A program made the translations under genes and the position numbers. From a virus, in IMG/VR virus record IMGVR_UViG_3300021405_000017, positions 1 to 52,547 of that record: a stretch of DNA of 52,547 bases; one strand, 5' to 3'. Positions 767 through 52,547 of the stretch are shown piece after piece; position 1 is the stretch's first letter, and each line of letters opens with the position of its first letter. Under the pieces are notes generated by a model, which was not told where the DNA came from, searched no databases, and saw only the letters and a program-made list of their open reading frames with translations.

Positions 767-1174
767 ATGGCGATGCCGACCAATGTTCTCGCCCTGCCGC
801 TGGCGCACCTCGTCATAGAGGTTGCGAACAACGAGGATTGGATCGACACGCTTGTCTTTTTGGTCGCCGACAGCCAGCCGACGCCGCCTTACGACCAACT
901 CGATTTGCGCGGCATCAGCTTCGAAATGCACCTCAGGCGGCGACCGGAGATTCACGAGATCGTGCTCGCCGCCTCGACCGTCGAGCGGTCGCTTCTGATC
1001 GGCTCGCCGCCGAATTTCGGCTATCTGATCTTCTACGTGCCCGAGGAAACGATGCGAACGCTCTGGGCCGGCCGCTACGTCGGTGACATCGTCGCTCGCG
1101 ACGCCAGCTTTCGAGGCGGCCGAGTCGTGCTCACAATCGACCTAGAGGTCATCGAAGGGATTACACGCTCGTGA
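767..1174 (+). CDS. BppU-like fibre base / baseplate protein, 135 aa
   Basis: ATG at 767 is preferred over the longer upstream reading, which would overlap the previous gene by about 30 bp. The short beta-rich protein has a [13 protein letters not shown] strand, a later [10 protein letters not shown] strand and an [10 protein letters not shown] turn. This is the layout of the small N-terminal domains that anchor phage receptor-binding fibres (BppU-like). The product of 46035-46385 has the same layout ([26 protein letters not shown]) and also directly precedes a collagen-like fibre. It overlaps the fibre gene by 4 bp (GTGA), suggesting coupled translation. Assignment is by pattern and context. 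Confidence 0.6.
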
Positions 1175-2817
1175 CCATCAAGCAAGTCATCCCCGGCGCT
1201 CTCTCGCCTCCCGGCGCCGAAATCTTCGCTGCGCCTTATGCGCCGATGGGCCCAATAATCGCCGGCACCAGCGCGACCGAGATCGACGTGCCCTCGCCGC
1301 CGACGTTCGTCCCTTTCCTGTTCGTTATGGATCAGTTCAACCTCGGCTTTCAGTCGGGGATGCGGCTTCGGGCCGCTGATACGTCCGACACTTCGAACCT
1401 CGCCGGCATCGAAGGCCACTGCCTCTCCTATAACCCAACGAGCAATGAGCTTGTGATTCTCGCCGACCTCGTCGCCGGGGCGGGCGCGCATGACGAGTGG
1501 TTTATCACCGTCGCCGGTGTTCAGGGGCCGCCGGGGCCGGAAGGGCCAGAAGGGCCGCCCGGTCCGCCGGGCGGCCCACAAGGTCCGCCTGGCAACAACG
1601 GTCCGCCCGGTCAGAACGGGATGCTGGTCGGCGACTTCGGTGACGTGGCCGACCCAACCATGCTGCCGATCGACGGTCTTCTCCCGATCGACTTCGACGG
1701 ACCGGGCAAGCCGTCTGCGCCGATCCAAATGCTCCCTGGCATGGGTCTCCTCTACACCGTCGATGGACATCAATGGACGTTCGTCTCGGATACGGTGGCG
1801 ACCGCCGGCTGGCTCGACGGCGGACAGATCCAAGGTCCGCAGGGCGAGAAGGGCGATAGGGGCGATGAGGGCGGGCCGCCTGGCCCGGAAGGCCCGATCG
1901 GCCCTCAAGGGCCGCAGGGCGACGAAGGGCCGCAGGGGCTTACCGGCCCGCCTGGGCCTCAAGGGCCGGTCGGTCCGCAAGGGCCAGATAACGGCGTCGT
2001 TAGCTTCAACACCCGCGTTGGCGCGGTGAACCTGTTGCCGCCGGATATTACCGGCGCGGGCGGGGCGTTGCTCCTGTCTCCGAACTTCATCGGAAATCCT
2101 CAAGCGCCAACTCAATTACCGGGCGATAGTTCGCAGCGCCTCGCGACGACAGAATTTGTGGGTACGGCGACCGGTCGCTTCCTGCCGCTGATCGGCGGTC
2201 AACTGACCGGACCGCTCCTGGGAACCAGCGCGAATTTTTCGGTCGGGGTGACGGTGCCGCCAGTTCTTGTCTCAGGAGCGAGCCTGATGATCGACGGCCC
2301 CGCGCCGCCATTCAGCCGTAACATCGGCGCCCAAGTCAACGGCTTGCTTCGCTGGATACTCTCGCTTGGCGATAACACAGCCGAGACCGGCTCGAATGCT
2401 GGGTCTGATCTCGTTATCTCTTGCCAGGACGATAACGGCCTGGCCCTTTATAACCCGGTGCTAAGGCTCGTTCGCGCCAGCGGCCGAGCGCTATTGCCTC
2501 GTGGGCTCAGCGTAACTGGGGGAATAGAGCTTACCTCTGGCGGCGTATCGTATCAGGATTTTTATCCGACTGGAGGTGCGTTTAGTTTTGGCTTTGCCGA
2601 CCTCGGCATTGGCGCCGGCGTCTTAGTTCGGATTGGCACTACGGTGCTTCCGGGGTACATGCAGTTTGGCCCGACCCCCAACACGCTTGCTGACTTGATC
2701 GATGAGGTCGAAGCGTTGCGAGCGCAAGCGGAAACACTACCCACCCTAACCAGGACGTTGCAAGAGGCGATGGCGCGCATCGCCTCCCTCGAGGCGCAAG
2801 TCACACCCCACCACTGA
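1171..2817 (+). CDS. collagen-like tail fibre protein, 548 aa
   Basis: GTG start at 1171 overlaps the upstream stop (GTGA). Residues 1-110 form a globular beta domain. Two Gly-X-Y collagen-like blocks follow (about 116-150 and 222-272, e.g. [19 protein letters not shown]), separated by a domain of about 70 residues. Next come the tail-fibre element [20 protein letters not shown] with RLATTEFV, a beta C-terminal region, and a terminal coiled coil ([20 protein letters not shown]) that probably trimerises. In this family such proteins form trimeric receptor-binding fibres on the virion. The endolysin/holin pair lies downstream. Confidence 0.88.
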
Positions 2818-13070: not shown

Positions 13071-13266
13071 AATATTTCGCTTCCCAATCCGCTAAGGCCC
13101 GCTCGGCGCTGGCTGCCGGCGTTGTCTGGATGCTCACTTCGCCGCTCACGATTGTGATCTTGCCGGCGCTGTCGATTTCGCAGCGCGTGACATGGAGCCC
13201 GGCCGCCTTGGCCGCGCGGAGCGCGCGAGTGACGTCGCTTTGACGGAAGGATGACGGACGTTTCAC
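13054..13266 (-). CDS. small protein upstream of integrase, 70 aa
   Basis: GTG start at 13266 overlaps the upstream ORF stop (GTGA); its 3' end overlaps the integrase start. The sequence RPSSFRQSDVTRALRAAKAA, then GLHVTRCEIDSAGKITIVSG, is a type I recall directly upstream of integrases in many rhizobial prophages. It may help directionality (excisionase-like) or just be a co-carried protein; no HTH is obvious. Confidence 0.75.
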   Translation of the reverse strand: MKRPSSFRQSDVTRALRAAKAAGLHVTRCEIDSAGKITIVSGEVSIQTTPAASAERALADWEAKYYGTSK

Positions 13267-13460
13267 CGTCGCTCGCCCTTCCCCGTCGCGGAATCGGCCC
13301 TTTCGCTTATGGCGGGAAGCCCCGCCGGGCGACGCGCCCCCGGGCGCGGTGTCTCACACTTCGCCCGAGCGGTCCGCGAAGACAAGAGGGCGCCGCGCAC
13401 AATTTGCGCTCCGTCCACGGGAATAGGCGCGGCCTGGTCCGATTCAATTCTCATCACCAC
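13263..13460 (-). CDS. possible small gene at array edge, 65 aa
   Basis: GTG start at 13460 has a GGAGG site 6 bp upstream, inside the edge of the pentanucleotide array, and its stop overlaps the next start by 4 bp (GTGA), as in the rest of this transcript. Composition is Arg/Ala/Pro-rich, with no recognisable domain. The signals favour a real gene, but the protein itself looks unremarkable and could be spurious. Confidence 0.4.
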   Translation of the reverse strand: MVMRIESDQAAPIPVDGAQIVRGALLSSRTARAKCETPRPGARRPAGLPAISERADSATGKGERR

Positions 13461-13977
13461 GCCGCGCCTCCTTCCGTCTCAGCCGGCCCAGCCCCGCCTC
13501 GCCTTGCCAGATCAAGCCTAGTCACACCGCGCCTGGTCCAGCCTCGCCGGCCCCGCAAGCCGCGCCATGCCAGGCCACGCCTTGCCTCGCCAGGCCTCAC
13601 CATTCCGGCCGCGCCGAGCCCGGCCTTGCCTAGCCACGCCACGCCGCGCCAGACCCCGCCGCGCCGGCCTTGCCTTGCCTCGCCGGGCCTAGTCGCGCCC
13701 GGCCGCACCGAGCCTGGCCGAGCCCGGCCGTGCCGCGCCCCGCCGAGCCCTGCCTGCCTCGCCCCACCTCGCCAGGTCCAGCCTTGCCAGGCCTTGCCCC
13801 ACGCCGCACCTGCCTTGCCCTGCCTCGCCAAGTCGCGCCCGGCCTCGCCGGACCCAGCCCAGCCTGGCCACGCCTGCCTTGCCACGCCCAGCCTCACCGG
13901 GGCCGGCCGCGCCTTGTCTAGCCTAGCCATGCCTGGTCCGGCCGCGCCGTGCCGCGCCTGCCTTGCCTCGCCTCGTC
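13458..13977. repeat. degenerate pentanucleotide array A1 (CCNNG on +, GGCNN on -)
   Basis: About 100 units of 5 bp. On the plus strand each is CC-N-N-G (e.g. CCTTG CCTTG CCTCG CCGGG CCTAG); on the minus strand GG recurs every 5 nt. It fills the gap between the stop codon of the 13978-14280 gene and the start of the 13460 ORF with no other spacer. Open frames across it are a by-product: only a TA dinucleotide in the variable position can make a stop. Confidence 0.9.
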
Positions 13978-14280
13978 TCATACGGGCGAATCGAGCCGTT
14001 TGAACTCGCCTCGCCGTAGCTCGATGGCCGGGACACTCCGGATCTCGCTGCGCCGCGCCTTGATGACGAATTCGCGCCATTCTCGCCGCTGCTCCCGCTC
14101 TAAGCCGCGTACTAGGTCAGCCTGATATTTCTCCGACAACGCGCGCTTCACCCAAGCGTCGAACGGCAGCCGAGCCGCAGCTGCCGCCTCCTCGAACGCC
14201 TGCATGATCGGCGAGGCAAGGCGAATGTGGAGCGTCTTGCCGCCCACCTCGTCGTCATTGTCATTGATGGGTTCGTTCAT
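13978..14280 (-). CDS. RHH-like / small regulatory protein between arrays, 100 aa
   Basis: ATG at 14280 with GGAGAGGG upstream. The longer reading to 14604 runs into the repeat array and is rejected. Residues 15-50 (KTLHIRLASPIMQAFEEAAA followed by ARLPFDAWVKRALSEKYQ) look like a ribbon-helix-helix or antitoxin-type DNA-binding fold, with a beta strand and two helices. The C-terminal half is basic (EREQRREWREFVIKARRSEI). It is the only gene lying between two pentanucleotide arrays, and its stop codon abuts array A1. A role in binding the arrays is an attractive guess only. Confidence 0.7.
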   Translation of the reverse strand: MNEPINDNDDEVGGKTLHIRLASPIMQAFEEAAAAARLPFDAWVKRALSEKYQADLVRGLEREQRREWREFVIKARRSEIRSVPAIELRRGEFKRLDSPV

Positions 14281-14301
14281 GACCCTCTCCTTTTCACTTT
14301 T

Positions 14302-15775
14302 GCCCGCCTTGCCTGCCTTGCCTTGCCGAGCCTTGTCGGACCCAGCCGGGACACGCCAAGCCTCGCCATGCAACGTCCCGCCGCGCCTGCCTTGCCATGT
14401 CGGGCCTAGCCGGGTCGGATCTTGCCGAACCCCGCCAAGCCTCGCCTCGCCCGGCCCGGTCAAGCCACGCCTGCCTTTGCCTTGCCATGCCTGGCCTTGC
14501 CCAGCCGCACCGTGCCGAACCCGGTCGGACCCGGCCAAGCCTGCCATGCCAGACCTCGCCTCGCCGCGCCTTGCCAAGCCTCGCCAAACCCGGCCATGTC
14601 GCATCCGGCCGCGCCTGCCTCGCCCCGCCTTGCCTCGCCGCGCCCTGCCCAGCCCGGCCAGGCCGAATCGTACCGGGTCTAGTCATGCCCCGCCGGCCTC
14701 GCCTTGCCCCGCCAGGCCCAGTCTCGGCTCGTCCTGCCTCGCCTAGTCCCGCCCAGTCGCGCCCGACCATGTCAGGCCGTGCCCGGTCCCGTCTTGCCGT
14801 GCCGCGCCTTGCCAGGCCTGCCTCGCCATGCCTCGCCAAGTCGCGCCTTGCCTCACCGCGTCTGGCCCGGCCTTGCCGCGCCAGGTCTCGCCGTGTCGCG
14901 CCTGCCTTGCCTTGCCTTGCCCGGCCCCGCCTCGCCGGGTCCCGCCATGCCTGCCTCGCCTCACCCCATCGTGCCGGGCCAAGGCGTGTCCCGACATGCC
15001 TCGGCATGCCAGGCCCGGCCCGGCCGGACCTCGCCTGCCTAGCCTCGCCCGGTCGCGCCGAGTCGAGCCTAGCCTCGCCGCGCCCCGCCGTACCGTGCCC
15101 GGCCGGGTCATGCCTGCCTCGCCCCGCCGCGCCAGCGCCATGCCAAGCCTTGCCGAGTCGCGCCTGGTCGTGCCTGGCCCGGCCAGGCCCAGCCTGGCCA
15201 TGCCTGCGTTGCCTTGCCTCATCAGGTCAGGCCATGCCTCGCCTCGCCCAGCCTCGCCTCGCCTCGCCTGTCTGGCCATGCTTCGCCTCGTCACATCATG
15301 CCGCGCCGGATCAAGCCTCGCCCGGTCCCGCCGTGCCGTGCCTGACCCCGCCTCATCAGGTCTGGCCATGCCTGCCTCGCCTCGCTGCGCCGGGGCTCGC
15401 CCGGCCAAGCCGGGTCGAGTCCCGCCTGGCCCCGCCTAGCCTGCCTTGCCGTGTCAGGCCTCGTCACGCCTCGCCGTGTCCGGCCCAGCCTAGTCTGGCC
15501 ATGCCTGCCGTGTCCGGCCCAAACCAAGCCTCGCCTTGCCGCGCCTTGCCTCGCCACGCCTGCCTTGCCCGGCCAGGCCAAGCCTTGTCACGTCGCACTG
15601 CATCCCGCCTCGCCTGCCTTGCCTGGCCTCGCCAGGTCTCGCCGCCCTTGTCCTGCCCAGCCTCGCCTGCCTTGTCAGGCCACGCCTAGCCGGACCGGGC
15701 CGGGCCTAGCCTTGCCTCGCCGCATCTGGCCCGGCTCTGTCATGCCAAGCCTGGCCTTGCCTGCCTTGCCGTGTC
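14302..15775. repeat. degenerate pentanucleotide array A2, about 1.47 kb
   Basis: The longest array, roughly 290 units of CCNNG (plus) / GGCNN (minus). It is interrupted about every 50-90 bp by a 4-bp unit in the phrase GCCTGCC(T/A)TGCC or GCCTGCCTCGCC, e.g. near 14387, 14614, 14816, 14900, 14949, 15111, 15370, 15560 and 15610. Many intervals look like 5n+4. It begins exactly at the stop codon of the 15774-16316 gene and ends at the ribosome site of the 14280 gene. Confidence 0.92.
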
Positions 15776-16316
15776 AGGCGGCGGTTCGTGAGCCGCCGCC
15801 CTTGCCTTTGCCGCCTTTGCCGCCGCCGGCCTTGCCCGCACCTTTGCTCGCAGCCTTGGCGGCGCGGGCTCGTTCGGCGATGGTTTCGAGGTTGAGCAAC
15901 ATGGTGTCCAAGTCTGGACCGACGCCCAGGACGAGGGCGACCTTTCGCGCCCGCTCTATAGCGGCGGCGATGCGGTCAACCTCGTCCTCGAGGACTCGCA
16001 GCGCCCGCGCGCGCTGACCTTTGAACGAGGTCAATTCGCAAGAGGTCTGCGTTTTCGGCGCTCGATCGGGATCGACAATGTAGTAGGGCACTACGATGGT
16101 TTCGGTCTCCGTGATGACCTCAAACCGGACGTAACGGATCAGGGTGCGGGCCTGCTCGATCCAATGCTGTTGCGCCGCCTTTTTTACGTCCCATTCGAAG
16201 TCTTCATGGATTGGAGAGCCGGGAGGCCGAGCCGCTTCGACCACCTTCTCAGGCTCAAGACGCCCGCTGGAGTCTTCCAGCGAGCGAATAAAGGCGGCCT
16301 TGGCCGCCGACATCAT
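15774..16316 (-). CDS. hypothetical phage protein, 180 aa
   Basis: ATG at 16316 overlaps the upstream stop (ATGA). The N-terminal half holds a pattern I associate with uncharacterised alphaproteobacterial phage proteins: RLEPEKVVEAARPPGSPIHE, then FEWDVKKAAQQHWIEQARTL. The middle is a long helix (RALRVLEDEVDRIAAAIERA). The C-terminal 30 residues are Lys/Gly-rich (GKAGGGKGGKGKGGGS), a flexible basic tail. The stop codon is formed at the boundary of array A2. It belongs to the recombination-module operon; a nucleic-acid-associated role is plausible. Confidence 0.75.
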   Translation of the reverse strand: MMSAAKAAFIRSLEDSSGRLEPEKVVEAARPPGSPIHEDFEWDVKKAAQQHWIEQARTLIRYVRFEVITETETIVVPYYIVDPDRAPKTQTSCELTSFKGQRARALRVLEDEVDRIAAAIERARKVALVLGVGPDLDTMLLNLETIAERARAAKAASKGAGKAGGGKGGKGKGGGSRTAA

Positions 16317-17197
16317 TGCGACAGCCCCACCTCGTCGCCGCCGCCATTGCTCTTAGGCGGGCGCTTGCCGTTTGCGGCTTTCGGCGTCTTGCCCTTTGAC
16401 GCCTTGCCGCCCTCGCGCTGAGAGCTAGCCTCGCGCCGGATGATCTCGCTCTCGTACCACACCCACAATTCTTCGCTGTCGATATCGCTCGCCTCCGGGT
16501 TATCGTAGGCCGCCTGTTGCACCTTACGGCCGCCGTTCTTGACGATATCGAGCCAGCGCGGGTCACGCGCATCGACGACCTCCCAGCCGCCGTTGTTGAA
16601 GGTGCCCTTCTCTGTTCGCCCGTCGCCGATGCCGGTCACATCGCCGGCGTTCGACATCAAGTTGACGATCGCCCGCTCGGTCGTCAGCGTCTTGATGAAT
16701 TGGACGGTGAGTTTCACCGCCCATGTTTTGAACATCGCGCGGGTTCGAATGTCGGGCACGCGCTTCATGCCCTCAAGGCGGACCCAATCCATGTAGAGGT
16801 AGGGCTTGCCATAGACGTGGACCGTCTGGTCGACCACCTGCACCAGACAGCCGATCTCAGTCTTCGTTGCACCTGGCGTGCGGAGCGCCGCGGAACCGAG
16901 CGCCTTTTTGAAAGCGCCGGTAGGGAAGTGAAAAAGCGTAGGCGCGCTATCGTCGCGGCACCGATACATTGTGTCGCGGAATTCAGCGAGCGGGTCATGT
17001 TTCAAAATGACCTGCTTCTCGGCGTTGTTTTTAGCGCGCGACGGAAGCAACAGCTGCTGCTTCGCTTTCGCGCTCGGCCGATTCATCACCAGGGGCGCCG
17101 TGCCCAGAAGATGGAAGACAACGTAGCCTCGCTCGAAGCGCTTAAGCTCCGAGACCATCTCGGTGGTGTCGCGTGTTTTACTGGGTTTGGTAGCCAT
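16313..17197 (-). CDS. hypothetical protein of the recombination module, 294 aa
   Basis: ATG at 17197 with a GGAGGAG ribosome site upstream. Residues 20-260 look like a mixed alpha/beta domain (YVVFHLLGTAPLVMNRPSAK, HDPLAEFRDTMYR, FPTGAFKKALGSAAL, and GDGRTEKGTFNNGGWEVV). The C-terminus is lysine-rich and low complexity. I recall similar proteins next to phage annealing proteins and exonucleases but cannot name the family. Position suggests help in ssDNA handling or recombination; this is inference. Confidence 0.72.
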   Translation of the reverse strand: MATKPSKTRDTTEMVSELKRFERGYVVFHLLGTAPLVMNRPSAKAKQQLLLPSRAKNNAEKQVILKHDPLAEFRDTMYRCRDDSAPTLFHFPTGAFKKALGSAALRTPGATKTEIGCLVQVVDQTVHVYGKPYLYMDWVRLEGMKRVPDIRTRAMFKTWAVKLTVQFIKTLTTERAIVNLMSNAGDVTGIGDGRTEKGTFNNGGWEVVDARDPRWLDIVKNGGRKVQQAAYDNPEASDIDSEELWVWYESEIIRREASSQREGGKASKGKTPKAANGKRPPKSNGGGDEVGLSQ

Positions 17198-17252
17198 TCT
17201 CGTCTATGCTCCTCCTTTCGGAAAACGGCCTATCCGCTTTCCGTCGTCGCTT

Positions 17253-17279
17253 GGCCCGGGCGTCGTGAGCGCCCGGGCC
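17253..17279. other. perfect 10-bp inverted repeat
   Basis: GGCCCGGGCG-TCGTGAG-CGCCCGGGCC. It lies between array A3 and the ribosome site of the 17197 gene. There is no clear T-run on the minus strand, so it may be a processing or pausing hairpin or an operator. Confidence 0.55.
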
Positions 17280-17297
17280 TTGCGTTTCGTTCGCGCT

Positions 17298-17937
17298 CAG
17301 CCTGCCGGCCGAGCCTTGCTTTGCCTCGCCATGCCGGGCCGTGCCACGCCGGGCCTGACCAGACCCAGCCCTGCCGAGCTGCGCCACGCCAAGTCGCGCC
17401 TGCCTCGCCCAGCCGGGCCGTGTCGGGCCTAGCCGCACCTCGCCCGGCCTCGCCAGGTCCGGCCGCGCCAAGCCTTGCCTGCGTCGCCGCGCCGTATCGC
17501 GCCGGACCGGGCCACGCCCCGCCAAGCCTCGGCCAGACAAGCCTCGCCAGGCCGCGCCTGCCTTGCCTCGCCATGCTGAGCCCAACCCCGCCAAGCCCCG
17601 CCGCGCCAGGTTCAGCCAGGTCCGGCCTCGCCTGCCTCGCCTTGCTCCGCCCCACCTCGCCGTGCCCCGTCACGCGTTGCCCGGTCGCGCCCAGCCGTGC
17701 CCCGTCTCGTCTAGCCATGCCTGCCTTGCCCCGCCGAGCCGGGTCTGGCCTTGCCCCGCCAAACCGCGCCACGCCAAGCCTGGCCTGACCCCGCCTGCGT
17801 CGCCTTGCCTCGCCTCGCCCGGCCAAGCCGCGCCCGGCCTCGCCATGTCGGGCTCAGCCCGGCCAGGCCTCGCCGGTCATGCCGCCCCTTATCGAGCCCA
17901 ACCCCGCCATGTCTGGCCAAACCGCGCCTGCCTTGCC
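17298..17937. repeat. degenerate pentanucleotide array A3, about 640 bp
   Basis: About 128 CCNNG (plus) / GGCNN (minus) units, same orientation as A1 and A2. It starts directly at the stop codon of the 17938-18966 gene and ends about 20 bp from the strong hairpin at 17253. The GCCTGCC(T)TGCC slip phrase recurs (e.g. near 17400 and 17560). Confidence 0.92.
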
Positions 17938-43191: not shown

Positions 43192-43451
43192 CAGCCGATC
43201 CCCATTCTCCGCCGGCCCCTAGCCTAGCCGGCGTTCGCAAGGCCGAAATCGACGTCGGTCCTGAGTTCTTCCGGGCGACTCTCCAGACTGTGACGCCGCC
43301 CAACACGCTGACGATGGCGGCCTCGACCGGCGCCGCGAAGATCGTCATCCATCTCGACACTGGCGAGGTTGACCTTCTCGGGCTTGAGCCAAGCGAGGGC
43401 GCCCGGCTCTTTTGGAAGATCGTCGAGGAGCAATTCGGGAAACGAGGATGA
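43188..43451 (+). CDS. hypothetical protein, 87 aa
   Basis: ATG at 43188, 4-bp overlaps both sides. KAEIDVGPEFFRATLQTVTP then STGAAKIVIHLDTGEVDLLG, a mixed small domain ending in an amphipathic helix. Directly upstream of TerS. Not named. Confidence 0.65.
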   Translation: MTADPHSPPAPSLAGVRKAEIDVGPEFFRATLQTVTPPNTLTMAASTGAAKIVIHLDTGEVDLLGLEPSEGARLFWKIVEEQFGKRG

Positions 43452-43948
43452 GAAAAGGCCCGGCGCCGCTTCCGACCCATCTCAAGCTGTTGCGCGGCAA
43501 CCCGGGGCAGCGGGCGCTCAGCAAGGGCGAGCCGATGCCGATGCAGCCGCCCGACCCGCCCGACCCGCCGGGCGATCTGACCGGCTACGCCAGGGAGGAA
43601 TGGAACCGGATCATCGTCGAGGTCTTTCGGCTTCGGCTGGTGACCAGCATCGATATCCAGGTCCTGGCCGCCTATTGCGACGCCTACGCCCGCTGGCGCA
43701 ACGCGCGTGAGACCTTAGCCGCGATGGCCGAGCGCGATCCCATAACCCGCGGCCAGATCGTCAAGACCCAATCCGGTGGGGCCGCGCCTAATCCGTTGGT
43801 GTTCATGGCCGCCGCCGCAGCCCGAGACATGGTCCGCTTTGCCGCTGAGTTTGGATTATCCCCCGCCGCCCGTACCCGCATTAACGCGATTGACGCCATC
43901 GGCGGCACGCCGAGCAAGTTCGCGGGGCTCCTCGCCGGAGTTGATTAG
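43448..43948 (+). CDS. terS: terminase small subunit (P27 family)
   Basis: 166 residues, ATG at 43448 (4-bp overlap). The P27-type pattern is clear: basic start RKGPAPLPTHLKLLRGNPG, a proline-rich piece PPDPPDPPGDLTGYAREEWN, RITASID-like VTSIDIQVLAAYCDAYARWR, and GGAAPNPLVFMAAAAARDMV with GLSPAARTRI. It recognises phage DNA for packaging and works with the overlapping terL. Usual length. Confidence 0.92.
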   Translation: MRKGPAPLPTHLKLLRGNPGQRALSKGEPMPMQPPDPPDPPGDLTGYAREEWNRIIVEVFRLRLVTSIDIQVLAAYCDAYARWRNARETLAAMAERDPITRGQIVKTQSGGAAPNPLVFMAAAAARDMVRFAAEFGLSPAARTRINAIDAIGGTPSKFAGLLAGVD

Positions 43949-45512
43949 ACGCAGCGCGCGCGGGAAGCTTCGCGCGGACGAAGTCATCCGGTTCATCGAG
44001 GCTTTAACCGTTCCCAAGGGGCACGGGCAGGGCCACCCGTTCGTGCTGATGCCGTGGGAGAAGCGGTTCATCCGCGACGTCTATGAGCCGCATTGGAACA
44101 AGAACGACAAGCGGGTGGTGCGCCGGGCCATCCTGTCGATCGCCCGCAAGAACGGCAAGAGCGCACTGACCGCGGCCTTGTGCCTCACCCACCTGATTGG
44201 GCCGGAAGCGATCCCCAACGGCGAGGTGTATAGCGCCGCCAATGATCTCGACCAGGCGGCGATCATCTTCCGGTTCGCCCAACAGATGGTGGAGCTCGAG
44301 CCGGACCTGGCGCAGAAGATCGACCTGGTTCCGTCGACCAAGACGATGGTCGCCCGGCCGACCGGCTCAGTGTTCCGCGCCGTCTCGCGCGAGTCTTCGA
44401 CCAAGCACGGCTATTCGCCGTCGATGGTAGTCTATGACGAGCTGGCGCAGGCCAAGAGCCGCGCCCTCTATGACGTGTTCGACACCGCCTTCGGCGCTCG
44501 CGAGGAGCCGCTGTTCGTCGCCATCTCGACGCAGAGCAACGATCCCGAGCACGTCTTGTCGAAGCTGATCGACGACGGGATCGCCGGCGCCGATCCCTCG
44601 ATCATCTGCCATTTGTACGCCGCCGATGAGGGCTGCGACCTGGCTGACGAAAGCCAATGGCGAGCGGCCAATCCGGCGCTCGGCGTGTTCCGCGACCGCG
44701 AAGACCTGGCGACGGCGATCCGCAAGGCGCAGCGGATGCCGGCGGAAGAGCCGAAGGTTCGCAATTTGTTCCTCAATCAGCGGGTGTCGCCGTTGGCCCC
44801 CTTGATCTCCCGCGCCGAGTGGTTGGATTGCGTCGGCCCGGCCGAGCTGACCCCCGGCGAGGAGGTCTATCTCGGCCTTGACCTCGCGAGCGTGGTCGAC
44901 CTGGCGGCGCTGGTCATGGTCTCGGCCATCGATCCGGCCCGGGTCGCGCCGCTATTCTGGAAACCCCGCGAGCTGCTCGCCGATCAATCCCGGCGCGATT
45001 TCGGCGCCGGGAATAATCGTTACCAAGAGTGGGCCGACGCCGGCCTCCTGCGCTTAAGCCCGGGGCGCTCGATTGATCCGGCGGTGATCGCGATGGCGAT
45101 CGGCGAGCTGGATCAGCGCTACCGCATCCGCGGCCTCGCCTATGACCGCTGGCGCATCAACGACCTCTTGCGAGCGTTCGATAATATCGGGCTGCGCGCG
45201 TTCAAAGACGGGGATAAGGGCGACGGCCTGCGCCTGGTGCCTTGGGGCCAGGGGTTTAAGGACATGGGCCCGGCGATCGACGCCCTCGAGGTGGCGATCT
45301 TCGAGCATCGGCTCATTCACCCGAGCCATCCGATCCTGAATTGGAACATGGCGAACGCCATCGCGACCATGGACCCGAGCGGCAATCGGAAATTAGACAA
45401 GAACGCAGCCCGATTTAGAATTGACGGCAGCGTCGCGCTCGCGATGGCGATGGGGCTTCGCTCGCGCGACCGCACCAAGCCGCCGATCGATGTTTTCGCG
45501 CTGATCGGATGA
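43941..45512 (+). CDS. terL: terminase large subunit
   Basis: TTG start at 43941, 8-bp overlap with terS, is preferred over an in-frame ATG at 43776 that would overlap terS by 170 bp and adds non-homologous Pro-rich sequence. 523 residues. ATPase: Walker A-like SIARKNGKSAL (67-77), Walker B VVYDELAQ with Asp166/Glu167. Nuclease: GLDLASVVDLAAL with Asp314 and Asp320, plus FRIDGSVALAMAMG near the end. Matches the Terminase_1 type paired with P27 small subunits. Cuts and pumps DNA into the prohead. Confidence 0.93.
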   Translation: MIRRSARGKLRADEVIRFIEALTVPKGHGQGHPFVLMPWEKRFIRDVYEPHWNKNDKRVVRRAILSIARKNGKSALTAALCLTHLIGPEAIPNGEVYSAANDLDQAAIIFRFAQQMVELEPDLAQKIDLVPSTKTMVARPTGSVFRAVSRESSTKHGYSPSMVVYDELAQAKSRALYDVFDTAFGAREEPLFVAISTQSNDPEHVLSKLIDDGIAGADPSIICHLYAADEGCDLADESQWRAANPALGVFRDREDLATAIRKAQRMPAEEPKVRNLFLNQRVSPLAPLISRAEWLDCVGPAELTPGEEVYLGLDLASVVDLAALVMVSAIDPARVAPLFWKPRELLADQSRRDFGAGNNRYQEWADAGLLRLSPGRSIDPAVIAMAIGELDQRYRIRGLAYDRWRINDLLRAFDNIGLRAFKDGDKGDGLRLVPWGQGFKDMGPAIDALEVAIFEHRLIHPSHPILNWNMANAIATMDPSGNRKLDKNAARFRIDGSVALAMAMGLRSRDRTKPPIDVFALIG

Positions 45513-46034: not shown

Positions 46035-46385
46035 ATGCTACCGGCGACGTACAATCTCGATCTGTATAGAGGCGACACGCTAAGGTTACAGGTAAAGTTG
46101 TGGAACAACGAGGAGCGTGATGATCCGGCCGATTTGGATGGCGTGATCGCAGCGAGCCAGTTTCGTGTACGGCCCGACGCTGAGCCGATGGTCGAGATGG
46201 CGTGCGCGATAACTTTGCCGAACGTCGTCGATCTAACCCTCAGTTCAGACGCGAGCCGGATGTTACCAAAAAAGGGCGTGTGGGATCTGGAATTGCGTTT
46301 CCCAGGCGGGGACGTATTTACACCGCTAGCCGGGAAAATGACGCTGAAACCTGACGTAACGCTACCGCCAGGCGCCGCGCCCTGA
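46035..46385 (+). CDS. BppU-like fibre base protein, 116 aa
   Basis: ATG at 46035. Beta-rich: [71 protein letters not shown]. This matches the short N-terminal domain of baseplate/receptor-binding assemblies and parallels the 767-1174 gene. It touches the collagen-like gene (TGATG) and lies between TerL and head genes, an unusual place. Confidence 0.62.
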
Positions 46386-47239
46386 TGGACGCGCGCGCTG
46401 ACCGGCCCGCCATCCTCGCCGTCGACATCGTCGAGCATCGCGTCGACCTGGCGATCTCGATCGGCCCCGCCGGCCCGCCGGGCGCGCAGGGGCCGCCAGG
46501 GGCAGACGGAATCGACGGCGCGCTAGGTCCGCCGGGGCCTCAGGGCGATCCCGGCCCACAGGGCGGCGCTGGGCCGCCAGGCCAGGATGGCGCGATCGGC
46601 CCCCAAGGGCCGCAAGGCCTTCAGGGCGATCAAGGCCCGATCGGCCCGATCGGTGCGACCGGCCCGCAGGGCGATCCGGGGCCGGCGGGCGGACAAGGGC
46701 CGCAAGGCGGGGTCGGTCCACAAGGGCCGCCAGGTCAGGACGGCGCGCAGGGGCCGGCGGGTGGACAAGGACCGCCGGGCGCGAACGGAGCGGACGGCGT
46801 TGACGGCGCGATCGGCCCGCCTGGCCCTGGCGTGGCGACCGGCGGCGCGGTCGGCGATGTCCTGGTTAAGACGGGCGCGCCCGATTTCGCGACTGGCTGG
46901 CAGGCGCAAATCGGGCCGTGGCAAACGCCGGGTGTCGTTGGCGGCACCGATAGCGGCGTGGAATATCGCATGGAGCCTGGCCGCGTCGTGCGGCTGCGCG
47001 GCGTCTTCATTCCCATAAACGGTGATGATGGCAGCGCCCGCCTTACCGGGATGCCGCCGGGCACATCGGCGCAGGAATTTGTCAGCGCAGCGGGCTTCAA
47101 TATCGCCAACAGCACGCCGACCGCCTGGATGATCATTGTCCAACAAGACGGTCAGCTCTTGTTCTACCGCATCGTCCCGGCGCCGGACGGCAGCGGCGGG
47201 CGCGTCGGCCTGGAAGGCGTGACCTACACCACGACATGA
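46385..47239 (+). CDS. collagen-like fibre protein, 284 aa
   Basis: ATG at 46385, 1-bp overlap. After 25 residues, Gly-X-Y repeats run to about residue 145 ([19 protein letters not shown] and so on). The C-terminal domain ([44 protein letters not shown]-like [12 protein letters not shown]) is a compact beta domain. Probably a trimeric spike. It overlaps the following capsid-fibre fusion gene by 4 bp (ATGA). Confidence 0.85.
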
Positions 47240-50064
47240 ACGTTCAAACAAAACCTCCGAACCCGTTTAAAAGGCGCAAGCCCTCGCCGATCGCCGCCCA
47301 GGCGACGGGAAGCCAGGAGACGTTTGTCCGCTACGTCGTCGTCAAGGCGGCGGCTCAGTTGCGCCGCGGCGACGAGATGGCGATCGCCAACGCCCGCTTC
47401 CCCGGCGACGCCCGCCTTCGCACCGTCATTCGCGCCACCGCCGAGCCGCCGACCGATCTCAGCAACACGCCGGCGCTCGCGGTTATGGGCGTCGATTACG
47501 TCGAAAGCCTCCAGCCGATCTCGGCTGCGGCGCAGGTGTTCCGCGCCAGCCGTCTCATGCTGAGCTTCGATCGCTACGCCAGCATCTCGATCCCTGACCT
47601 GGTGGGCCTCGACGAGGGGCCGCCGGCCTGGGTCGCATCCGGCCAGCCGGCGCCGGTCGGCGAGCTAACCGGTCAAGCGACAATCCTCGAACCGCGCAAG
47701 CTCGAGTTTATCATCACCATCAGTAGAGAAATGCTTCTCGGTTCGAACGCCGAGAAGCTGATCGGCGACGCGCTGCGCGCCAAGATCGCCTTCGATCTCG
47801 ACAAGTCCTTGTTCGACGCCTTGCCGGTGAGCGCGGCGCGGCCCGCGGGCCTGAGATCTTTCAACACCCGGCTGCCCGAATCGACGGCGACCAGCAGCAA
47901 CGACACGGCGATGATGCAGGACGTGGGCACGCTCCTTCGGGCCGCCGAGCACATCGCCGGCGGTGAGCCGATCTACTTCATCGCCCGCTCTCGCCGCATC
48001 GCCGCGATGCGGCAAATGTATCATGGCCGCCCGCCATCCAATTTCGTCTTGCTGCCGAGCGCCGCCAGCCTCGCCTTGCCGGAGAGCGTGTTGCTCTGCG
48101 TTATCCCGCGCGCCGTCCCGTCGGCCATCGGCTTGCCTGAGGTTGAGCTCGTGGAGAGCGCGGCCGTCGAGATGGATGACGCGCCGGGTTCGCCGGACGT
48201 CATGCAGGCGCAGAATGTGCGCTCGTTCTTTCAGTCCGACACTTTCGGCCTCAAAGTACGCCTTCCGGCCTCTTGGAGCTTACGCCATCCGGACGGGGCC
48301 AACTGGATCACGTGTCTTTGGCCGGCGGACATTGGCGCCGGCGGCGGCGGTATGCCAGACGCGCCGGCCGACCAGTTCACCTATGGCCGGCATCAAGGCG
48401 CATGGGCGCCGGTAGCCGAGGAAGTACCGGCGACGCCGCCCGCGACCGGTTTTGCCCGAACCAATGTCTCGACATCGCCCTGGGTGCCGATCGAGAATTT
48501 GACGGCGCATCTGGCGCCGCTCGACTCGCCGGTGTTTACTGGCGCGCCGGCCGCGCCGCACCCGCCGCCAGGTGACGCCAGTACCCGGGTCGCCACGACG
48601 CAATTCGTTCGCGACGCTGGCGGCCTTGAGGAAGTCCCGGTCACGCCCAACGGGGCTTACGCGCGCGTCAGGGCCGGCGCCAATACGGATTGGCGCAACT
48701 TGGTTGAACTCGGCGTCGCGCCGCTCGATTCGCCTATCTTCATCGGCGCGCCGCGCTCGCCGACGCCGCCGCCGGGCACCGCCAATGACACCATCGCCAC
48801 GACTCAGTTCGTCCGCGACAATGCACCGGCCGGCGGCGTCGAGGATGTGCCAACTACCCCGAGCGGGGCCTATGCGCGCACGCGCTTTGCAGGCGATCCT
48901 GCGGGTTGGACGACGCTTGCCGACCTTGGCGTGGCCTCGCTCACCTCGCCCGTATTCATCGGCAACATAACGGTTCCGAACGGCACGCTCGGTTTCCCCG
49001 GTATCCAATTCACCGACAACCAGGTTGGCGTCTATCGGAGCGCCAATCTCATGGTCCTGGTCGCCGCCGGCGCCGCCGCGGCCCAGTTCTCCCCGACGCT
49101 GTCGGCGATCTTCTCGCCGCTGTTCCTGAGCGGCAACCGCATCCAACAGGTCGGCGACGCGACCGCGGCTACTGACGCGCTCAATCAGCAAACCGCCGAC
49201 GGCCGCTATGTCCGGCCGGGCGGCCCGGCGTTGACGGACACGCTGACCACCAAGGCCGGCACCGGGATCAACGATCTAGGTCTTGCGGTTGGGGACGGCG
49301 CGACGGGTTTCTACCGCGACGCCGCGGGCACGGGCGCCGGCCTCAGCACGATGGTCGGCGGCTTTCCGCTGTTCATGCTGTTGGCCTCTCGCGAGGCCGT
49401 CATCAACGGCCCTTTGAGCGTGGGCGGCAACCGCGTCATGGCGGTCGCCAACCCGGCGGCTGGCTCTGACGCGCTCAATCTTCAAACTGGCGACGCCCGC
49501 TACCTGACGCTCCAGCAGGGCGGCATCGTCAGCGGCGCGGTGCAGTTCCTGTTCAATCCGGTCCTGCCCACCGACGCGGTGACGAAAGGCTATGTCGACG
49601 GCCTTGTCACCGGGCCGCGCGCACCCGCTCTCGTCTTCGATCTCCCGGCGGACGTCACGATTCCCCCTAACGAGAATTGGACCGATCTCGCCACCGTGCC
49701 GTACACGATTCCACTGCGTCCCGGCGTCGCGTCGTTAGTCCGATTGAGTATGTCTGGCAACCTCGCCGATTTGAGTAACGTTGCAATGCTCGCCGTCCGC
49801 ATTGGCTCCGGCCTAGGGAACAGCAGCACTTTCCCGGAGCGCCGCGTCTTCGCCTACGGTAGTTCTACGGGCGCGGTTACAAGCAGCGGCTTTGTCGTCG
49901 ATTTCTTTGCCGAGCCGGCCCCTGGCGCGACGACGATGAGCCTCCCGCTTCAGATCAAGCAGTTCAACGTCGGCGCGCCGATGACCCCGATGCGGGTCCT
50001 CGGCGGCGGCCCGACCACGGGCGAGCGCTCGCAAATCTGCGTCACCGACCTCGGCCCGGTCTAA
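47236..50064 (+). CDS. HK97-capsid-like domain fused to tail-fibre-like stalk, 942 aa
   Basis: ATG at 47236. Residues about 60-385 follow the HK97 major-capsid pattern and align by eye with the true capsid ORF at 50130: [15 protein letters not shown] against [31 protein letters not shown] against VTPKKLGVITVMTREI, then [20 protein letters not shown]. After a linker come fibre elements: [20 protein letters not shown] with [10 protein letters not shown] (twice), [20 protein letters not shown] and [20 protein letters not shown] with a final KGYVDG, then a beta C-terminal domain (about 790-942). It could be a minor capsid subunit that displays fibres on the head. Confidence 0.75.
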
Positions 50065-50129: not shown

Positions 50130-52547
50130 ATGCCGATCTCACCCGGCGCTGACGAATCGCAATCCGATTGGATGAGCCGTTGCGTGCCTGAAATGATGGG
50201 CCCGCCTGGGCCGGACCAGCGCGACAACGACCAGGCGGTCGCGATTTGCTTGGACATTTGGCGCGAGGAGCACCCGAACGCCGCGGCCTATCGAGCCCGC
50301 CAGAAGCGCATGAAGCAGACCGGCAAGCAGATCGGGCCGGACGATGGCGAGAGCTATACAGAGTGGCTCGATCGCTGCGTCGATGAAACCGGCGATCCTG
50401 ATTTTTGCCAATGGCTATGGGAGGAGATGCGGGGCGGCGACGACACGCTCCACGCCCGCCCGCCCGCCTACAAGGGCGGTAAGCCGCAATGGCGCCGCCA
50501 AGCGCCATCGCCCAATGCGGACGAAGATCACGACTCGTTCATGAACCGCTGCATCGTCGCCGTGCAGGAGGATGATGATACGCTCAGCGAAGATGACGCC
50601 GAGCAGATGTGCGAGGTCGCCTGGAGCAACGGCGAAGCGCACGCGCGGCCGGCGATCATCAAGAGCACGGCCAAGCCGGTCCACAATTTCGAATACACGA
50701 TGAGCGATGAAACGCCGGATCGTTACGGCGACATCGTCGCTCATGACGGCTGGGTGCTCGACCACTTCCGCAACAACCCGGTCGCGCTATTCGGCCATAA
50801 CCACGACTTCCCGATCGGCCGATGGCTTGATGTCCACATCGACAAAGAGGTCAAAGCCCTCCGCGGCCGGCTCGACATCCCCAAGGGCGTCTCACCCCGA
50901 ATCGATGAAATCCGCCTCCTGGTTGACGCCGGCTATCTCCCCGCCGTCTCGGTCGGCTTCCGCTCGCTGACGCGTCCGAAGCAGATCAAAAACGAGGCCG
51001 GAGATGACACCGGCGGCCTGCACTTCCTCAGGCACGAATTGCTCGAGTGCAGCGTCGTGCCGGTTCCAGCCAATCCCTCAGCCTTGGCGATCGCCAAGTC
51101 GCTGCGCATTTCGCCCGACACCCTCAAGCTTGCGTTCGCCGAGCCCGGCGATCGACGCCAGCTTGTTCGGCGTCGGGTTTTAACCGGCGAGCCCGCCGCA
51201 CGCCCTCACGGGGCAAGGCACAAAGCCATGTCTACCATCAGTGAACGAATCGAAGTCGAACGGAGTGTCATCAACGACCTGCGCGATCGCCAGGCCGAAC
51301 ACCTGCGTAACATTGACGACGCCAACCCCAACGAAGCGGAAGACGCGATCACGGTGAACCTCAGCCGGCAGATCGGTCAGCACGTCCGGCACCTGCAGAG
51401 CCTCGAGGAGGCGGAGCGGGCGCAAATGCCGGTCAGCATGGGTGAGCGTATCGGCGAGATCCTGCCGCCTGAGCGGGATCCGGACGAGCCGGGTTCGAAC
51501 GGGCGCCGCACGCCGGTGCGCGGGCGGCAGCTCATGCTCGCGCCGAGCCCGATCGCCTTCCAGCGCGCCGACGGCGGGATCAAGTATCGGTTCCCGCCCG
51601 CGATCATCAAGCGGCGCAAGGAACTCGACTCAGTCGACTACCTCATCCGCAACGGCGTGATCACGCTGTTCGCGCATCGGCTGAAGAAGAATCCCGATGA
51701 GATTCGGACGATGCTCTACGGCGATGACGAGCGGACCAAGGCCTGCTTCCAGTACATCCAGAAGGCGGTCTCAGCCCCGGCGATGACCGACGTGCCGACC
51801 TGGGCGGAGGAACTGGTCATCCAGGTCCAGGGCGACTTTATGGCGCCCCTGATGCCGACGGCGATCTTTCCGCAGCTTGCGGCGCTCGGCCTGTCGCTCG
51901 ACTTCGGCCGCGCCGGGCGCATCGCCATTCCGACACGCTTGAGGACCCGCACCATCGCCGGCGCGTTCATCGGCGAGGGTCAGCCGATCCCCGTCAAGCA
52001 GGGCGTGTTTTCGCCTCAGATCGTCACCCCGAAGAAGCTCGGCGTCATCACGGTAATGACCCGCGAGATCGAGGAACACTCGATCCCGGCGATCGAGGCG
52101 TTGTTGCGCGACGCGATCTCGGAGGACACCGGGCAGTCGATTGACGACGTGCTGCTTGACGCCAATCCGGCGACCGTCGTTCGGCCGCCTGGCCTCCGTA
52201 ACTACGCTCCTACCCCGCTTCCCCCGACACAAGCGGGGGCCGAGCCTATCCTGTTCAATCGGATGGTTCGCGACCTCCGCCGGCTGAGGGCGGAGCTGAT
52301 CAGCATGACCAACGGCAACGTCCGCGCGCCGTGCTGGATCATGAACCCGATCCGGACCGACGGGATTGCATTGAACGTCGCGCCGGGAACCGACCCGTTC
52401 CCGTTCCGCGCCGAAGTCTATGCCGGATCGCTGATGGGCTGGCCGCTGTTCGAATCGACCACGGTCAATCCCAACCAGATCCTCGCGGTCGATGCGGCGG
52501 ACTTCGTCACGGCGGGGCAAGGTGCGCCGACGTTCGGGGGCAGTTAT
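50130..52547 (+). CDS. prohead protease-major capsid protein in one ORF (3' end cut by window)
   Basis: ATG at 50130; no stop before the window end (806 codons). Residues 1-185: three helical Cys repeats (WMSRCVPEM..., EWLDRCVDET..., FMNRCIVAV...). 186-345: HK97 prohead protease (DRYGDIVAHDGWVLDHFRNN, FGHNHDFPIGRW with His, AVSVGFRSL with Ser at about 274). From Met367 (51228): coiled delta/scaffold-like domain (RIEVERSVINDLRDRQAEHL), then the HK97 capsid fold (GRIAIPTRLRTRTIAGAFIG, EGQPIPVKQGVF, ITVMTREIEEHSIPAIEALL). The two functions are fused in frame or separated by an internal start at 51228 or by self-cleavage. Confidence 0.88.
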   Translation, partial: MPISPGADESQSDWMSRCVPEMMGPPGPDQRDNDQAVAICLDIWREEHPNAAAYRARQKRMKQTGKQIGPDDGESYTEWLDRCVDETGDPDFCQWLWEEMRGGDDTLHARPPAYKGGKPQWRRQAPSPNADEDHDSFMNRCIVAVQEDDDTLSEDDAEQMCEVAWSNGEAHARPAIIKSTAKPVHNFEYTMSDETPDRYGDIVAHDGWVLDHFRNNPVALFGHNHDFPIGRWLDVHIDKEVKALRGRLDIPKGVSPRIDEIRLLVDAGYLPAVSVGFRSLTRPKQIKNEAGDDTGGLHFLRHELLECSVVPVPANPSALAIAKSLRISPDTLKLAFAEPGDRRQLVRRRVLTGEPAARPHGARHKAMSTISERIEVERSVINDLRDRQAEHLRNIDDANPNEAEDAITVNLSRQIGQHVRHLQSLEEAERAQMPVSMGERIGEILPPERDPDEPGSNGRRTPVRGRQLMLAPSPIAFQRADGGIKYRFPPAIIKRRKELDSVDYLIRNGVITLFAHRLKKNPDEIRTMLYGDDERTKACFQYIQKAVSAPAMTDVPTWAEELVIQVQGDFMAPLMPTAIFPQLAALGLSLDFGRAGRIAIPTRLRTRTIAGAFIGEGQPIPVKQGVFSPQIVTPKKLGVITVMTREIEEHSIPAIEALLRDAISEDTGQSIDDVLLDANPATVVRPPGLRNYAPTPLPPTQAGAEPILFNRMVRDLRRLRAELISMTNGNVRAPCWIMNPIRTDGIALNVAPGTDPFPFRAEVYAGSLMGWPLFESTTVNPNQILAVDAADFVTAGQGAPTFGGSY

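Follow-up and report, generated by a model that had tools for sequence, protein, structure and literature searches.

We examined a 52,547-nucleotide stretch of viral DNA (IMG/VR record IMGVR_UViG_3300021405_000017, positions 1 to 52,547; hereafter the window) and found a gene that joins an HK97-type capsid domain to a long fibre in one polypeptide. The gene is a single uninterrupted open reading frame (ORF) at 47236..50064 (plus strand, as are all of its parts and neighbours given below), encoding 942 amino acids with no internal stop. Judged from its sequence, its product is probably a minor subunit of the capsid to which an adsorption fibre is covalently joined; we infer its incorporation into the virion, its position there and its receptor.

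The capsid half was recognized by several comparisons. Residues 7-377 of the fusion protein align with residues 489-878 of the 885-amino-acid capsid protein encoded downstream (25.6 per cent over 406 amino acids, E 2e-14, blastp), and the two motif matches to the true capsid protein pointed out in the original prediction ('GQPxPV' and 'ITxSRE') are both real positions of the alignment. That prediction was also right in aligning the N-terminal ~385 residues with the true capsid protein, but not in placing the latter 3 kb downstream, as the next ORF starts 66 bp after the fusion. With three orthologues as the query, residues 12-357 matched 31 major capsid cores (probability 99.6, E 1e-23, hhalign). 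A profile of the accessory clade described below matched the solved major capsid proteins 9d9w (2e-7) and 8gta (1e-5), and the window protein on its own matched phrog_617, 'major head protein' (E 1.3e-8). No Pfam family, Phage_capsid included, was matched by the window fusion protein alone; PF05065 was matched by fifty-seven of the sixty-six aligned relatives. By these alignments, residues 1-362 (47236..48321) are paralogous to the HK97-type major capsid protein of the same phage, though divergent from it. The domain lacks the protease and scaffold regions and ends at the tryptophan where fibre-less paralogues end.

Past this tryptophan lies a glycine-rich linker with a 'PDAP.D..TYGR...W' module (residues 363-420; 48322..48495), followed by a fibre shaft (residues 421-580; 48496..48975) made of ~70-amino-acid repeats of the form 'SP.F.G.P..P.PPG....IATTQFVRD...EEVP.T..GAYAR'. 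Tail-fibre PHROGs match residues 415-602 (best 1.6e-18, PHROG 4209), and the shaft resembles the P1 tail fibre gpS, which aligns with the C-terminal half of the fusion at 37 per cent over ~110 amino acids. A second shaft segment (residues 581-793; 48976..49614) carries 'DALN.Q..D.RYL....G..(T/S)G' repeats and weakly matches PHROG 2647, 'head decoration' (0.007 in the window and 1.8e-5 to 4e-6 in the related loci L033, L007, and L005, the L005 match of 4e-6 being at residues 582-631). The protein closes with a tip domain (residues 794-942 plus the stop codon; 49615..50064), and these last 149 residues are found only in orthologues of the fusion among the fetched loci. The C-terminal 550 residues had earlier been described as fibre repeats. 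The repeats are indeed of tail-fibre type, but they start near residue 420, after the linker and its module, and the last ~150 residues form a separate tip. The linker module recurs outside the fusion: L109 has it in a separate gene, the L007 contig has it in an ORF at L029:7032-8369, and it opens the free-standing fibre gene L003:13893-15671. Release of the fibre alone from an internal start is unsupported at the methionine after the glycine-rich linker (this applies to that methionine, not to other starts): the residue is leucine (TTG) in L005, and no clear ribosome-binding site lies upstream.

The two-domain gene recurs in other metagenomic contigs. L003 (IMGVR_UViG_3300050821_008965) is 99.985 per cent identical to the window over 13.5 kb and repeats the window copy of the fusion. 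Full-length two-domain ORFs are also present in L005 (894 amino acids) and L007 (851 amino acids), at 48-49 per cent identity, with partial copies in L033 (3'-truncated), L006 (C-terminal part), and L035 (N-terminal fragment). In all full-length copies the fibre is joined covalently and in frame to the capsid paralogue, and across the four sequences compared the junction shows neither a frame change nor a gap; the contigs that hold it are named for metagenomes 3300050821, 3300032895, and 3300021180. The covalent fusion first read from the window is thus borne out, and the alternative raised with it, that relatives would have separate genes and the window a frameshift, is excluded by these copies. 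Pairwise ratios of nonsynonymous to synonymous substitution rates (dN/dS) fell at 0.21-0.38 in the capsid half, against 0.59-0.71 in the remainder, the latter inflated by uncertain repeat alignment. By this measure the fusion is conserved, with purifying selection on both halves, and the faster divergence of the fibre half may reflect adaptation to variable receptors. A search of 50,697 phage records gave no match to the capsid half, and genome_contigs gave no relative of it; when genome_contigs was scanned with the capsid alignment, a single distant locus, from Gluconobacter, came up. The fusion itself turned up neither in those phage records nor in the bacterial genomes scanned. Among 385 Alphaproteobacteria there were two weak capsid matches and nothing else.

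Scanning with the capsid alignment gave seventy-four loci. In the resulting tree, accessory proteins split from major capsid proteins with 100/100 support, and the fusion is monophyletic inside the accessory clade (100/100) on a long stem branch (1.55 changes per column). On this tree, the capsid half falls within an old clade made up of accessory HK97-type paralogues. Second paralogues that lack a fibre occur in L041, L061, L106, L065, L108, and L109, with the L065 copy placed as a separate duplication. Right after that independently duplicated paralogue, L065:13989-16081 encodes two IPT/TIG-type proteins, a candidate for a head-cluster adhesin (the first of the two was scanned). Of twenty longer records surveyed (20-63 kb), most have a single capsid protein, and three paralogues are present in two (those of L005 and L109).

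The long stem, which marks strong divergence from the major capsid protein, fits another explanation of the capsid half, that it has left the lattice to serve as a docking base, a capsid-derived decoration protein that rests on or caps the completed head and displays the fibre. Decoration proteins do commonly hold head fibres (PMC7602432). Nevertheless, the whole domain, from N-terminal arm to last tryptophan, is kept and constrained in the fusion, and its free-standing, fibre-less relatives keep the same full capsid length, which is a better fit to lattice subunits. We regard a docking base as unlikely.

The fibre-less members stop at '...W', the exact point where the fusion goes on as 'WP(S/A)D(I/V)G'. 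In L109, an accessory capsid gene follows the terminase large subunit (TerL) gene and is itself followed by a separate 139-amino-acid gene ending in 'GGGGGTGGIPEAPQDGTTYGRNTAAW...', close to the fusion linker 'GGGGEGMPEAPYDEFHYGRHQGTW'. The simplest history would be an in-frame fusion between an accessory capsid gene and a fibre gene next to it. The arrangement in L109, a distant locus, could also be taken to mean that two normally separate genes were joined in the window ORF by an error of assembly or sequencing, or in a decaying pseudogene. Such an origin is hardly credible given the same in-frame junction in four different sequences, the repetition of the window copy in L003, and the purifying selection on both halves; by these comparisons the ORF is neither a frameshift product nor an assembly artefact. 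The L109 locus has two further peculiarities. At L109:2293-4933 two fibre-less accessory paralogues stand in tandem after TerL with the 139-amino-acid linker-module gene between them, the major capsid gene lying ~10 kb beyond, and at L109:5145-9980 the head genes are interspersed with genes for a glycosyltransferase-like protein with TPR, a methyltransferase, and a 959-amino-acid protein combining a pyridine nucleotide oxidoreductase domain with an ADP-ribosyltransferase domain.

The fusion gene sits in the head cluster, after TerL and before the protease-capsid gene. In the window, genes for the terminase small subunit (43412..43948) and TerL (43776..45512), the latter fixing the head-gene position of the fusion, precede a small beta-domain protein (46035..46385; weakly LtfC-like, phrog_1084) and a collagen-like protein (46385..47239) whose gene overlaps the start of the fusion by four bases. 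Downstream is the major capsid protein fused to a prohead protease (50130..52547; Peptidase_S78, scaffold region, and Phage_capsid), which is cut by the window end; completed from L003, it is the 885-amino-acid protein aligned above, with Peptidase_S78 and Phage_capsid. In L007, TerL stands directly before the fusion. On the 67.7-kb L005 contig the order is fusion, protease-capsid, portal, collagen-like protein, a third capsid paralogue (336 amino acids), a gp6-like connector, and a contractile-tail sheath; TerL and the small terminase are encoded at the far end of the record.

This location bears on whether the protein is instead a tail or neck fibre, with an N-terminal anchor borrowed from a capsid gene and attached at the portal or neck vertex. 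The shaft repeats are of tail-fibre type, and a unique vertex would need few copies and ease problems of symmetry. Against this, the gene belongs to the head cluster, where TerL or its small neighbours immediately precede it and the capsid gene follows; tail-fibre-like genes are located elsewhere (window 1171-2817; G001 26-30 kb). A tail or neck position therefore seems quite improbable, even more so than a docking base.

Other features of the neighbourhood concern the phage as a whole. The sheath gene in the L005 order indicates a myovirus, and the phage is probably contractile-tailed. The sheath contains an insert, at about residues 165-267, which is also encoded by separate genes lying between those for capsid and portal (L005:13973-15871; L023:2381-5104); the insert looks immunoglobulin-like by eye but matched no Pfam family. 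The interval from TerL to the capsid gene holds no portal gene, but loss of the portal was rejected: in relatives the portal lies downstream of the capsid gene, and the window, a linear record ending inside the capsid gene, has none for that reason. The collagen-like gene had been suggested to form part of the same spike as the fusion. This suggestion is unsupported, as L005, L007, L033, and L035 have no such gene between TerL and the fusion, and an obligate partnership is likewise rejected. A different collagen gene in relatives precedes the third capsid paralogue. This third HK97-type paralogue (about 336 amino acids; L005:10459-11469, also in L023, L024, L111, and L113) overlaps by four bases the end of the collagen-like gene just after the portal. 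Elsewhere in the window, positions 13250-17830 consist of degenerate short repeats (GCC-rich units of 5-25 bases) that give spurious Arg/Pro/Ala-rich ORFs on both strands.

How might a capsid subunit with its own fibre work? Having neither protease nor scaffold region, the capsid half would have to co-assemble with the protease-processed major capsid protein if it is in the shell. There the fusion would fill a minority of the lattice places, with the fivefold vertices as our best guess; a minority, perhaps vertex, subunit is favoured because the coat extensions of T3, T7, A2, and Listeria phages, the RcGTA spikes, and the fibres of phage 7-7-1 set a precedent. With the C-terminus of the fusion outward, the fibre would project from the head and could bind the host surface first, before the tail engages. 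A fuller version, to which we give slightly less than even credence, is a head that combines two or three HK97-type subunits with specialised roles, including a lattice tile with its own receptor-binding fibre that is installed by assembly and not by later docking. Some points weigh against a fibre-bearing capsid subunit. The HK97 fold of the capsid half is predicted from homology, orthologues are few (five metagenomic contigs beyond the window and its near-copy, none from an isolate), and known shafts with this repeat type are trimeric, which gives no simple match to a fivefold position.

The fibre-less paralogues trace a possible route to the fusion. If the fusion protein does act as a fibre-bearing subunit, it would show that duplication of a capsid gene can give rise to a tile dedicated to carrying an adhesin. 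Such a protein would offer a natural scaffold for the display of large fibres. It would also pose the question of how a fibre with trimeric known relatives is accommodated in a lattice of five- and sixfold capsomers.

T4 gp24 is a vertex paralogue of the major capsid protein gp23. Like gp24, the capsid half of the fusion is an HK97-type paralogue that shares its genome with the major capsid protein and may fill a special lattice place, but gp24 is fibre-less whereas the window paralogue bears a fibre and some of these phages have three paralogues; the lattice place is one we infer. Major capsid proteins fused to a protease (phrog_617; those of PAJU2, Moraxella phage Mcat9, and Stenotrophomonas phage SOVA965) have a capsid core homologous to that of the fusion over its whole length. 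The window fusion differs in lacking the protease and scaffold, in adjoining the true major capsid gene, and in bearing a 580-residue fibre. In phages T3, T7, A2, and Listeria phages, a fraction of the coat subunits carries extra C-terminal domains (PMC5009743). These frameshift-made extensions (T7/T3 10B, Lactobacillus A2, Listeria A118/A500/PSA) also place an extra C-terminal domain on part of the subunits; in the window the extension instead belongs to a separate paralogous gene, with an in-frame junction and without recoding, and is a long fibre ending in a tip in place of a short or immunoglobulin-like domain. RcGTA carries eleven spikes on pentamers of its head, and these spikes attach to the host capsule (PMC7296036); phage 7-7-1 has one flexible fibre per vertex, its protein unidentified, that binds flagella (PMC12796354). 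Together with phi29 gp8.5 and SPP1 gp12, these head fibres and spikes share the presumed job of the window fibre, cell-surface binding from the head (PMC7602432, PMC7296036, PMC12796354). In phi29, RcGTA, and SPP1, however, they are separate proteins docked on the shell, while the window fibre is part of a capsid-type polypeptide. Our literature search, which covered open-licence papers only, found no described capsid-fibre fusion of this kind; in the characterised cases it did find, the head fibre is a separate docked protein, and the coat extensions are short products of recoding. The parts are familiar, and it is their covalent joining in a dedicated capsid paralogue that is new, within the reach of the searches made.
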